Source: a virus
Length of the DNA: 64,000 nt
Strand: one strand, 5' to 3'
Virus record (IMG/VR): IMGVR_UViG_3300015245_000002
Location: 19,745-83,744 of that record
In this document: positions 59,852 through 64,000 of the stretch, one piece after another
How the letters are laid out: each line of letters opens with the position of its first letter
How positions within the stretch are numbered: the first letter of the stretch is position 1
Notes under the pieces: generated by a model
What the model saw: only the letters and a program-made list of their open reading frames with translations
Databases searched by the model: none
Told to the model about the DNA's origin: nothing
Program-made: the position numbers and the translations under genes

Positions 59852-60715
59852 GTGAGCTACCCCGGCGCGCAACACTCGGCATCGCGATGGACCGCGACCG
59901 TGTACTCGATTGCGGCCAGTACGCGGCCGGCGGTCGGCATGGGCACGAGTACCACGCCGGGGAACAACACGTACGGGACCGCCGTCACACTGATCAGCGG
60001 TGCGAACCTGACCTTCGACTGCTGCGAGTTGGTGGTCTGCGTCAACAATGCCGCGATTTCGGCTACGGCGCGCGACACCGTTGCCGCGCTGCTCGTTGAT
60101 CCAGCTGGCGGAGCGTCGTTTACCTCGATCGCGGATCTGGTCTGCGGTCCATGCTCTGGATACGTCACCGCGAACGTCGGTTTTGGCGGCACGATATTCC
60201 GCCTCCCGCTTTGGATCAAAGCCGGAACGAGCATCGGCATCGCCACGGCGGTGAACTCAGCCACGGTCACCGCGCTCAATGCGTTCTGTCGCGTCAATGG
60301 CCAGCCGAGCGATCCGCGGACCGCGCCGTTCATCGGTACCTATATCGACCAGTTCGGCGTGTCGCTGGCGACTAGCGCCGGCACGACCGTCACGCCGGGC
60401 ACGACCACCGATGGCGCCTACGCGCTCATCGGTACGACAACGCGCCCCCTGTACGCGCTCGAGTTCGGCTACGGCATCAACGATGCGACCATGACCGCTG
60501 CGGTTTGCGATGTCGACATCGCCGCAGGGGACGGCACCACGAACACCGTGATCATTCCGAGGTGGCCGGTGGCGACGAGCGCCATCGAGGCGGTCTCGAA
60601 GTTCCCGGCCCTGGCCTACACCTCGATCGCTGCCAATGTGGGGCTCTACGCGCGGGCGCAGTGCTCGAATACGCCTGACAGCGCAAACTCGGTTGCAATC
60701 TACGGAGTTGGGTGA
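59852..60715 (+). CDS. Tail fibre or virion protein
   Basis: A 287-residue Thr/Ala-rich beta protein from GTG 59852 (TVYSIAASTRPAVGMGTSTT, MTAAVCDVDIAAGDGTTNTV). Likely a fibre or decoration domain of the tail tip. No family recognised. Confidence 0.6.
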   Translation: MSYPGAQHSASRWTATVYSIAASTRPAVGMGTSTTPGNNTYGTAVTLISGANLTFDCCELVVCVNNAAISATARDTVAALLVDPAGGASFTSIADLVCGPCSGYVTANVGFGGTIFRLPLWIKAGTSIGIATAVNSATVTALNAFCRVNGQPSDPRTAPFIGTYIDQFGVSLATSAGTTVTPGTTTDGAYALIGTTTRPLYALEFGYGINDATMTAAVCDVDIAAGDGTTNTVIIPRWPVATSAIEAVSKFPALAYTSIAANVGLYARAQCSNTPDSANSVAIYGVG

Positions 60716-60718
60716 ACC

Positions 60719-61849
60719 ATGGCTGTTCCGTTTACCCCGACGACAGGTAGCGCGAGTGCCGGCGCGAGCGAGATCTCGTTGATCAGTGGGACGACGTCGT
60801 TACAGGCGTCAACCACGGCTGGTGATGTCGAGATCTGGATCGATCTGTCCAACATGGTGGTGGGTGACCAGTACCAGGTTCGCCTCGTCGAGAAGGTGAA
60901 CGGGGGCACGGCTGCCAACGCGTTCATCTCCTTCCCCAAGGATGTCCAGGTCGGGCTGTACCGGGTCGGTCCGTTGCGCGTAAGCGAGGGGTGGGATCCG
61001 CGTCTGAAACTGACGAGCGGTAGCGCGCGTACCGTCAACTGGTCGATCCGCCAGTACGTCGGCGATGTCAACGCGCTCACGCTCGGCTCGGGCGCGGTGA
61101 CCGCGACGGCGATCGCCAGTTCGGCCATCACGAGCGCGAAGTTCGCGACCGATGCGCTCGATTCGAATGCGCTTGCGGCCAGTGCTGTCACAGAGATCCA
61201 GACCGGACTCGCGACGTCAACGGCGCTCGCCAGTGTGCAGACCGACACGACGACGCTCACAGGGCGCCTGACGAGCACTAGGGCCGGACTGCTGGATAAT
61301 CTCGACGCGACAGTCTCCAGTCGAGCGGCATCGGCCACGGCGCTGTCAACCGCCACATGGACGAATGCCCGTGCAGCCGAGATCGACAACCTCGACGCAG
61401 CGGTGACCACGCGCGCGCCGGCCAGCACCGCGCTTAGCACCGCCACGTGGACCAACACGCTCGCCGCGCTGATCACTTCCATGCTCGATGTCGCGGTCAG
61501 TACTCGGGCATCGGCTGCGGCGCTCGCTGCGGTCGCTGCGCAGTTACCGGCCACGCTCGACGGTAGCGGGAATATCAAGGCCGGGGTGCAGTCGATCGTG
61601 GGTGCAGCTGCGACGACGATCGCCGACACGGTGATGAACTACGCGATCGAATCCGGCTGGACCAACGCGGCAACGTTCATCACACAGGCGCGCGTCATGT
61701 TCGGCATCATCGTGAATAAGGCGAGCGGCCTGGCTATCACGACCGGAAGTACCGAGCACTTTCGCAACGCGGCAGACACCAAGGATCGCGCTGTTTACGC
61801 AGTCGCCACCGATGGCACGCGTACCCCGACCACCGTGGACGGGACCTGA
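60719..61849 (+). CDS. Tail fibre with coiled repeats
   Basis: A 376-residue protein. Residues 1-110 form a head domain (VAVPFTP-like, LISGTTSLQASTTAGDVEIW). Then repeats of the type TALSTATWTNARAAEIDNLD, AAVTTRAPASTALSTATWTN form a long coiled stalk. Typical fibre stalk; binding domain not evident. Confidence 0.7.
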   Translation: MAVPFTPTTGSASAGASEISLISGTTSLQASTTAGDVEIWIDLSNMVVGDQYQVRLVEKVNGGTAANAFISFPKDVQVGLYRVGPLRVSEGWDPRLKLTSGSARTVNWSIRQYVGDVNALTLGSGAVTATAIASSAITSAKFATDALDSNALAASAVTEIQTGLATSTALASVQTDTTTLTGRLTSTRAGLLDNLDATVSSRAASATALSTATWTNARAAEIDNLDAAVTTRAPASTALSTATWTNTLAALITSMLDVAVSTRASAAALAAVAAQLPATLDGSGNIKAGVQSIVGAAATTIADTVMNYAIESGWTNAATFITQARVMFGIIVNKASGLAITTGSTEHFRNAADTKDRAVYAVATDGTRTPTTVDGT

Positions 61850-62049
61850 TGCATCTGGGGCAACATTTCGGGCAGCATGTGGGCCAGCACTTCGGTGCGA
61901 TCGGCGGGCCGATCGTCCTCGCGCCGACGCTACCGATCTGCGTGCACGTCACCTCGCTGTCCACGCTCTGCGCCGTCTCCGCAGGCATGAGCGTGCAGAT
62001 AATCGACAACAGCATCCACGCGACGATCGTGCGAGGCCCCTGTGACTGA
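61849..62049 (+). CDS. Small protein with GQHF repeats
   Basis: A 66-residue protein starting HLGQHFGQHVGQHFGAIGG, a His-rich short repeat that may bind metal, then a hydrophobic stretch. Overlaps the fibre stop and the next start. Unknown. Confidence 0.5.
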   Translation: MHLGQHFGQHVGQHFGAIGGPIVLAPTLPICVHVTSLSTLCAVSAGMSVQIIDNSIHATIVRGPCD

Positions 62050-62362
62050 TTCGATCACATTCCAGATTCGCCAAGGGGATTTGCTGCCAGCGATCACGGT
62101 GCAAGTCTTCAACGTGATCGGCGCGGTTGATCTCACTGCGTTCAGTGGTGGAATCACGTTCCGCATGGTCAAGGGTACGACAGTGATCACGGGCGCTGCG
62201 AGCGGTACCTCGGGTGGGCTCGCCACGTATCAGTGGCAGAACGGCAACACGGACATCGCCGGGATCTATGCCGCAGTGTTTGTCGGCATCGACGGTGGTG
62301 GTAGGCACGAGACGTTTCCGACCGCGCAGAACCTGTCCGTAGTGATCGTCGCGGCGATTTAG
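62042..62362 (+). CDS. Baseplate upper protein-like (BppU N-terminal type)
   Basis: A 106-residue beta protein from GTG 62042: ITFQIRQGDLLPAITVQVFN, GGITFRMVKGTTVITGAAS, a pattern shared by BppU-type fibre attachment domains. Probably anchors the adjacent fibre or beta-helix protein. Confidence 0.65.
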   Translation: MTDSITFQIRQGDLLPAITVQVFNVIGAVDLTAFSGGITFRMVKGTTVITGAASGTSGGLATYQWQNGNTDIAGIYAAVFVGIDGGGRHETFPTAQNLSVVIVAAI

Positions 62363-62389
62363 ACCCCCTCGGCCTGGTCGGGTGAGCCT
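62355..62389 (+). promoter_or_regulatory. Late promoter element, beta-helix gene
   Basis: CGATTTAGACCC (62355-62366), 17 bases, GAGCCT (62384-62389), six bases to GTG 62396. Confidence 0.6.
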
Positions 62390-62395
62390 GCTTAC

Positions 62396-63820
62396 GTGAA
62401 CCGAATACTCTGTGTGCTGGTCGTCCTCGGTGCCTGCGGTGACAACCTCACCGAGCCGATCACCGGGGAATGGGTGGACTACGGTGCCGCAGCGAGCGGT
62501 CCGCCGCACGCGCAGGACGTGACCGCTGTGATCTGCGACGGCACGACCGATACTCGAGCGGCCGTTCAGGCCGCAATCAACGCCGGTGGACTCGTCCAGC
62601 TACTCCCAGGTGGCGTCTGCGCTATCGCCGCGCCGAGCGCGGGCGCTGTCGCCGATCTCGTGCTGCCGCTGTGTCCTGTCGGCGAGACGTGCACGCTGGA
62701 CTGCGCCGGCAGCACGCTGCTCCAGGCGCCTGGCCAACCCCCGAGCGCGCGGCTCATCGATGTGTCCGGCGCCGGATGGACGATCCGCAACTGTGTGCTC
62801 GACGGCAATGCCGCGGCGCAGCCCCTGTGCGCGCTGACCAAAAACGGCGTCACGTCGCAGGTGCCATGTGAGCACCGGGCCGGCGTGTTCGGGCGCGCGC
62901 CGGTGACGATCGAGTTCGTCACGTCGCACAACTCGTCCGGGGACGGTTTCTCGCTGTACACCGGAACCGGCTACGTGCTGGATCACGTCACGGCGATCGG
63001 CAACCTGCGAGATGGTTTCAGCTGCGTCGGCAACGCTGGCGGGATCGCGATCACGAACTCCACGTTCACGGGTAACACGGCACAGCAGGTCGACCTCGAG
63101 CCGGCCACCTGCAACGATGTGACGTTGCGCGACTCGCTGCTCGACGGCGCCGGGGCGTCGAGCGACTATGTCCTGGCCATCGCGCACGGCGATCGCTTCG
63201 TCGCTGACCACAACGTCATCAATGGGCCGATCGACATCGTCCACTCGCACGGCGTTGTGCTCGAGCGCAACATCGGCACGAACACAACCACGAGTTCGAA
63301 CGTCCTCGTTTATGAGGACAGCGACGCACGGCTGACCGACAACACGTTCACTGCGACCGTGGCCAGGAGCGTGGTGCAGGTCACCGGGATCAGCGTTGCT
63401 GGCGCTCAGCCGTCGGCGACGCTGATCGGTAACACGCTGACGAGCAACGGCACCGCCGCCCTGGTCTATGCCCAGGGCGCGGGCACGATCACGTTGACCG
63501 GCAACACGCTGAACTGCACCACCGCGGGCCTCGCGGTCATGGCTCGGTCCTCGCTCCCGACGTTTTCATTCCAGCGTGTCGAGATGCGCGACAACGCGAT
63601 CGCGGGCTGTGCGCGGGCAATCGCGGTGAGCGGAATCGGCGGGACGGCGACGGTCGGCCAGTTGATCATGAGCGGCAACAGCGCAGGTACCGCGACGTCA
63701 ATCGCGGACGATGGTACCGGCGCGCTGCAGTTCGCGTTGGTCGATGCGCCAATCCTGAGGTGGCCGGTAGGCGCCGTCCTGACGGCCACGACGGCCGGAA
63801 CGATGATGACGCGGCCGTGA
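62396..63820 (+). CDS. Right-handed beta-helix protein with lipoprotein signal
   Basis: A 474-residue protein. The first 14 residues (VNRILCVLVVLGAC) are a lipoprotein signal with lipobox ending at C14, followed by GDNLTEP as in many myxobacterial lipoproteins. The body is a pectate-lyase-like beta helix with repeated N-x-(F/I) turns (ITNSTFTGNTAQQVDLEPAT, LTDNTFTATVARSVVQVTG). Either a tail spike that kept a host export signal or a host-surface lipoprotein. Expressed from a late-type element. Confidence 0.7.
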   Translation: MNRILCVLVVLGACGDNLTEPITGEWVDYGAAASGPPHAQDVTAVICDGTTDTRAAVQAAINAGGLVQLLPGGVCAIAAPSAGAVADLVLPLCPVGETCTLDCAGSTLLQAPGQPPSARLIDVSGAGWTIRNCVLDGNAAAQPLCALTKNGVTSQVPCEHRAGVFGRAPVTIEFVTSHNSSGDGFSLYTGTGYVLDHVTAIGNLRDGFSCVGNAGGIAITNSTFTGNTAQQVDLEPATCNDVTLRDSLLDGAGASSDYVLAIAHGDRFVADHNVINGPIDIVHSHGVVLERNIGTNTTTSSNVLVYEDSDARLTDNTFTATVARSVVQVTGISVAGAQPSATLIGNTLTSNGTAALVYAQGAGTITLTGNTLNCTTAGLAVMARSSLPTFSFQRVEMRDNAIAGCARAIAVSGIGGTATVGQLIMSGNSAGTATSIADDGTGALQFALVDAPILRWPVGAVLTATTAGTMMTRP

Positions 63821-64000
63821 ACGACGACGAGGACACGCCGCGCAGTTGGGTTCGCCCCAGGGTGCGCACTTCAGGCCATGGAGTGCCGACGGATTATGAA
63901 GATCCGATCGACACCGGGGTGTTCGATCTGCTCGATCGGGAAGTATCCGATGAGGAGCACGAGATCGTGCGTCGCAGCAGACGCCCGAGCGATGCGCCGC
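63817..64000 (+). CDS. Partial gene, runs off the window
   Basis: About 61 visible codons from GTG 63817 (GTGA overlap). Acidic and basic low-complexity start (NDDEDTPRSWVRPRVRTSGH). Continues beyond the edge. Could be an assembly or lysis gene; not recognisable yet. Confidence 0.5.
   Translation, partial: MNDDEDTPRSWVRPRVRTSGHGVPTDYEDPIDTGVFDLLDREVSDEEHEIVRRSRRPSDAP

Follow-up and report, generated by a model that had tools for sequence, protein, structure and literature searches.

A gene near the end of the 64,000-base stretch of viral DNA analyzed here (the window) encodes a beta-helix protein that begins with a lipoprotein signal sequence. We give a probability of about 0.5 to the reading that this is a late, exported, envelope-anchored protein acting on polysaccharide, which probably alters the host surface around lysis. 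On this reading, the infected (or lysogenic) host cell exports it as a lipoprotein, and it is not a spike of the virion. The open reading frame, the signal sequence, the beta-helix match, the gene order and the recurrence of such genes in other phages were observed directly. Beta-helix depolymerases of phages are usually regarded as parts of the particle. If our reading is correct, the same fold is also sent to the host envelope, and phages would also work on the polysaccharide coat from the side of the host cell.

The virus record is 83,744 bases long, and the window is its final 64,000. The first and last 77 bases of the record are identical (a direct terminal repeat at window positions 63924 to 64000 and L002:1-77, L002 being the locus at the record's start), and the map is therefore circular. 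It follows that the downstream neighbors of the beta-helix gene lie at the start of the record, where the gene cut by the window's end continues (Table 1). Upstream are the tape measure gene and several tail genes. The frame directly before the beta-helix gene has a 47% identical homolog beside other tail genes in a related phage, L073/G013. A search for the host by terminase alignment against genome_contigs found no relative.

Table 1. Features of the beta-helix gene and its surroundings (positions are those of the window unless prefixed L002)
Feature	Position	Strand	Remarks
Upstream gene, 106 aa	62042..62362	+	No Pfam or PHROG family
Intergenic gap, 33 bases	62363..62395	+	GGTGA at 62381-62385, possible ribosome-binding site (own reading)
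Beta-helix lipoprotein gene	62396..63820	+	474 aa, GTG start; position confirmed
Lipoprotein signal MNRILCVLVVLGAC	62396..62437	+	Direct reading, scored by pattern and comparison
Right-handed beta-helix, best Pfam stretch	62762..63220	+	Residues 123-275, Pfam
183-aa membrane-protein gene, first part	63817..64000, on to L002:445	+	One hydrophobic segment near C terminus (own reading)
Small membrane protein	L002:442-558		By eye
Holin-like protein	L002:565-810		By eye; no Pfam or PHROG match
Second lipoprotein	L002:807-1208	+	By eye; lipobox LGAC with its Cys as residue 17, GTG start; no Pfam or PHROG match
Amidase_2 endolysin	L002:3593-4450		Further downstream

The first-pass annotation had placed a late-type element ahead of the gene, which we did not find. 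The intergenic gap contained no sigma-70-like promoter, the promoter type covered by our search, and a 20-base piece of the gap had no second occurrence in the window at up to 3 mismatches. The stop of the beta-helix gene is overlapped by 4 bases (GTGA) by the 183-residue membrane-protein gene. Such an overlap is not special by itself, because 45 of the 125 same-strand neighbors in our own gene calls for this phage have one. The second lipoprotein gene likewise overlaps the holin-like gene.

The N terminus of the window protein has the features of a lipoprotein precursor, namely, a positive n-region, a hydrophobic h-region and a lipobox closing on Cys. It reads MNRILCVLVVLGAC followed by GDN, with one Arg and the lipobox L-G-A-C, whose Cys (codon TGC, 62435 to 62437) is residue 14. 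The 10 mostly hydrophobic residues before Cys14 have a mean Kyte-Doolittle value of 3.24. The GTG start is the earliest in-frame start past the stop of the upstream gene (62360 to 62362). Among 1,000,000 random N termini drawn with this phage's amino acid composition, the signal pattern occurred at a frequency of 6.5e-4, and the pattern together with an equally strong hydrophobic stretch occurred at 1e-6, a value that gives an order of magnitude only since it rests on a single case. In real sequence, a slightly different pattern was matched by 6 of the window's 2,209 possible starts and by 4 of the 685 elsewhere in the record. The usual motif rule for lipoproteins places the Cys between residues 15 and 35. 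The window copy, with Cys at 14, marginally misses that range, being one residue short; across the six phage copies described below, the Cys is at residues 13 to 16.

An alternative that we consider unlikely is that the protein is a virion tailspike or depolymerase, its hydrophobic N terminus being coincidental, unused, or left out by translation that begins downstream. Our rough gene caller did prefer a later GTG, at 62414, which would shorten the signal. In addition, residues 15 to 122 of the window copy, in which no Pfam family scored above its cut-off, leave room for a short attachment part. Against this, an alignment discussed below has the helix part beginning somewhere in residues 5 to 77, which leaves little room for a head domain, a weak argument, and the window copy is rich in Cys. 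Past the lipobox, 12 of 459 residues are Cys; the figure for 24 called structural genes is 60 of 7,702 (p=6e-4). Such an excess would be expected if the protein is exported; one tail-region product (59900 to 60715) is as Cys-rich (2.95%), and the mean of all called genes is 1.5%.

Other phages provide the strongest support for the signal. Related IMG/VR phages were found via terminase and endolysin alignments, and two of them have a beta-helix gene with a lipobox N terminus, L072/G012 (MDIKTLLALCLAAC) and L073/G013 (MTNLPKALTLSLLVAC). Scans with these two copies added L087 (MVRFLAMLFLVGC), L091 (MTMKHLIILVLASC) and L090 (MNRHALLILPFIIAC), and the patterns that retrieved the added three lie outside the signal. 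All five are of a length similar to that of the window protein. The lipobox Cys is present in all six copies and is one of 26 invariant columns in a six-way alignment. For the five other copies, we chose the starts ourselves inside longer open frames; in G012, L087 and L091, the stop of the preceding frame overlaps the chosen start by 4 to 10 bases. The claim that the first 14 residues form a lipoprotein signal ending LGAC was thus borne out, and a coincidental lipobox could be rejected because every copy carries one. The same finding weighs against a virion tailspike, since tailspikes fold in the cytoplasm and do not need export.

The beta-helix itself was confirmed by Pfam. The window copy matched PF13229 (Beta_helix) with an E value of 1.4e-11 and 44.7 bits versus a cut-off of 25.9. 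When 14 relative records, many of them fragments, were searched with PF13229, 2 scored above the cut-off (G012 and G013); the window protein, searched in the same 14 records, found none. NosD, an exported beta-helix protein, was tried as an identity and rejected. Its family PF05048 matched the window copy just past the gathering cut-off (E=1.3e-5, 25.2 bits versus 23.6) and below the Beta_helix score, whereas the NCBIfam NosD subfamily model, TIGR04247, gave no match to the window copy up to an E value of 0.1 and 13.2 bits with the G012 copy versus a cut-off of 300. None of the three proteins compared with the PADLOC defense families (the window and G012 copies and the second lipoprotein) matched any of them.

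How firmly the window copy belongs with the others varies with the evidence considered. The five other copies are clear mutual homologs, with 28 to 73% identity and E values of 2e-33 or better, whereas the window copy is 18 to 21% identical to them. By blastp, it matched the G013 copy with an E value of 3.6e-7 and the other four at 0.13 or worse. A profile of the five gave 2.5 bits on the window copy, equal to the best of 200 shuffles (2.5 bits). An hhalign comparison gave an E value of 0.0012 and a probability of 19% over residues 5 to 77 only, with six controls at 0.12 to 0.62. The window copy is an outlier with weak sequence homology, and what links it to the other five is its position, length, fold and signal. 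Fast divergence of an ortholog could explain this, as could independent replacement by a gene of like kind, and the source of the window copy may have been a captured host lipoprotein, as the first-pass annotation had proposed.

Wider searches gave no further relatives of the window copy. Against phages, it had nothing at an E value of 0.01 or below and one match at an E value of 7; confirmed relatives were absent in IMG/VR, PDB gave no sequence match, and tblastn against plasmids found no relative. A single scan of genome_contigs with exact short peptide patterns did not find a cellular relative. The G012 copy against phages and the G013 copy against plasmids gave no match. The window's own record did not come up when IMG/VR was scanned with the other copies, possibly because it lies outside the searched set. 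Such a protein was not described in the literature titles and abstract openings among the matches listed.

Gene order is conserved in part of the group. The same membrane-protein gene follows the beta-helix gene with a 4-base overlap in four of the six phages, the window phage, G012, L087 and L091 (E values for the window membrane protein of 1.9e-15 with G012, 3e-13 with L091 and 9e-5 with L087). A holin-like gene, recognized by eye, comes after it in all four. The second lipoprotein could be read in three (the window phage, G012 and L087) and was not identified in the L091 locus; the L087 and L091 loci were examined to 1.1 and 2.2 kb past the beta-helix gene. An amidase endolysin lies further downstream in the window phage and G012. 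Lysis genes thus follow closely on the beta-helix gene in the window phage and G012, as the shared membrane-protein gene does in L087 and L091. This fixed place would suit an auxiliary lysis protein that works, like a spanin, alongside the lysis genes on the outer membrane or on attachment to the matrix. We think that role very improbable, since the cassette already has a separate second lipoprotein and is also present in G002, a record without a Beta_helix match, and since the L090 and G013 copies are located elsewhere.

Those two copies also bear on the tailspike alternative. The G013 beta-helix gene is on the strand opposite the tail and lysis genes, the tail genes of this phage being 37 to 47% identical to those of the window phage. 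The L090 copy is in a contig of 117 kb whose examined stretch has 43% GC, and it begins 0.7 kb beyond a terminase gene (phrog_675, E=8e-117). No tail gene was recognized by eye in its surroundings, where two neighbors were searched and both were terminase genes. The beta-helix gene is therefore not always in the tail module. That all six copies have a lipoprotein signal, and that two of them lie apart from tail genes, favors a protein located in the infected cell's envelope. As a separate observation, the beta-helix lipoprotein in the stretch L090:3464-7425 is 49% identical to that of L072, a possible transfer between unlike phages.

Structure prediction, which the first-pass annotation had recommended for the active site, succeeded for one copy and failed for another. 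A single-sequence AlphaFold model of the window copy had a pLDDT of 35.5 and was unusable, while the G012 copy, modeled from a six-sequence alignment, reached a pLDDT of 80.2 and a pTM of 0.83. The N-terminal helix of the G012 model is of low confidence, as a cleaved signal would be. In VIA-align comparisons, the A-modules of AlgE6 and AlgE4, which are right-handed beta-helices, ranked at the top, both with a Z-score of 34.3 and with rmsd values of 2.4 over 335 residues and 2.2 over 327 residues, respectively. They were followed by phi29 gp12 (31.7), the Sf6 tailspike (31.0) and a CBA120 tailspike (30.5). RbmB, a polysaccharide lyase of Vibrio cholerae whose gene is bacterial and not of a phage, gave 30.3 over 305 residues; NosD gave 28.7, and HK620 gave at best about 28. 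Foldseek also listed AlgE modules first (E=4.8e-8), yet with TM-scores of 0.29 to 0.37 on the query, which are low, unlike the VIA-align Z-scores. A profile of all six copies found AlgE4 with an E value of 1.5e-6.

The likeness to AlgE does not extend to the catalytic motif. YG-x-DPH is the catalytic motif of AlgE-type mannuronan C5-epimerases, and it is absent from all six phage copies; to our knowledge, AlgE proteins are not phage lipoproteins. The charged or His residues invariant in the six-way alignment are, in window numbering, R119, H160, D183, R205 and E235. These are candidates for an active site, provided that the outlier is correctly aligned. The window copy lacks several polar residues common to the other five. 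The fold of the G012 copy is also that of the Sf6, HK620 and phi29 gp12 proteins, and two of the five other copies match the tail spike family phrog_2234 within the helix (G012, 2.9e-8; G013, 2.9e-4). Both observations, like the position of the window gene directly after tail genes, speak for a virion tailspike, which differs in having no counterpart to the lipoprotein signal found in all six copies.

A further alternative is a non-catalytic, carbohydrate-binding surface lipoprotein that would exclude superinfection by masking a receptor or would bring about lysogenic conversion by a temperate phage. The missing AlgE motif and the polar residues lost from the window copy are in keeping with it, as is the tyrosine integrase that the window phage encodes. 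T5 Llp and the Cor proteins are phage lipoproteins that exclude superinfection, and the Llp gene adjoins that of the receptor-binding protein pb5, so that a phage lipoprotein gene near receptor-binding or tail genes is not without parallel (PMC9586334). Llp, however, is small and jams FhuA from the periplasm (PMC9586334), unlike a 460-residue helix; the Cor proteins are small too, and the window copy, with 474 residues in all, is too large for the class of small lipoproteins that bind a TonB-dependent receptor. T5 Llp-type lipoproteins are a precedent by analogy for position and purpose, not for fold. No sigma-70-like promoter of the gene's own was seen, and the invariant Arg, His, Asp, Arg and Glu lie well inside the helix and would resemble an active site if the outlier alignment is right. 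We regard a non-catalytic protein as improbable, if less so than a virion tailspike.

A surface-displayed polysaccharide enzyme, one of the possibilities raised at the outset, fits best with the signal in all copies, the position near lysis genes and the G012 fold; its catalysis is a conjecture from that fold. It may be a receptor-modifying hydrolase, as first suggested, which would act through candidate catalytic residues on a putative receptor. A fold typical of polysaccharide enzymes and a place beside lysis genes make alteration of surface polysaccharide or exclusion of superinfection the most economical role. The protein would be expressed together with the late tail and lysis genes, Sec would carry it over the inner membrane, and Cys14 would be lipidated. 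The sorting rule for position +2, established in Escherichia coli, applied to the Gly found there, would probably direct it to the outer membrane. The beta-helix may then act on a surface or matrix polysaccharide in the manner of a lyase, epimerase or hydrolase. Stripping or altering the polysaccharide around the dying cell would allow progeny to escape without re-adsorbing to the cell or its debris. Because the gene adjoins lysis genes, this is the most likely use; superinfection could be blocked instead.

The similar genes in several other phages suggest that phages of this kind modify the surface of a cell that they are about to leave. A broader proposal, tentative and in our estimate rather doubtful, is that these proteins form a previously undescribed class of receptor-destroying phage enzymes that stay on the cell: a depolymerase fold joined to a lipoprotein signal, produced along with the lysis genes, anchored in the envelope, neuraminidase-like in keeping progeny from sticking to the cell or its debris, and moving between unlike phages. 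Were the envelope reading true, "tailspike" annotations near lysis genes would deserve a check for signal peptides, and avoidance by progeny of re-adsorption to capsule or matrix debris would become directly testable.

Several minor observations concern the same regions. Two tail-region genes at window positions 60719 to 62362 correspond to L073:2-1496 at 45 to 47% identity in permuted order: the window phage has them behind its hub genes, and L073 has them ahead. A pentapeptide-repeat protein (PF00805, E=7.7e-41) is encoded beside the tyrosine integrase (L002:12009-12752 and L002:12992-14161, both on the minus strand). Close to the endolysin gene, on the opposite strand, a 79-residue open reading frame (L002:4712-4951, minus strand) has a lipobox-like start, MLGKWMWTAVLLSAC. 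At the position of the second lipoprotein, lipobox-like sequences were seen by eye in L072, L087, L070, L073 and G002. In L071:8173-9072, L073:7727-8863 and L087:7568-8125, one uninterrupted frame spans both the holin-like segment and the second lipoprotein; the window phage has two separate genes, and the difference may reflect a fusion or an in-frame internal start.
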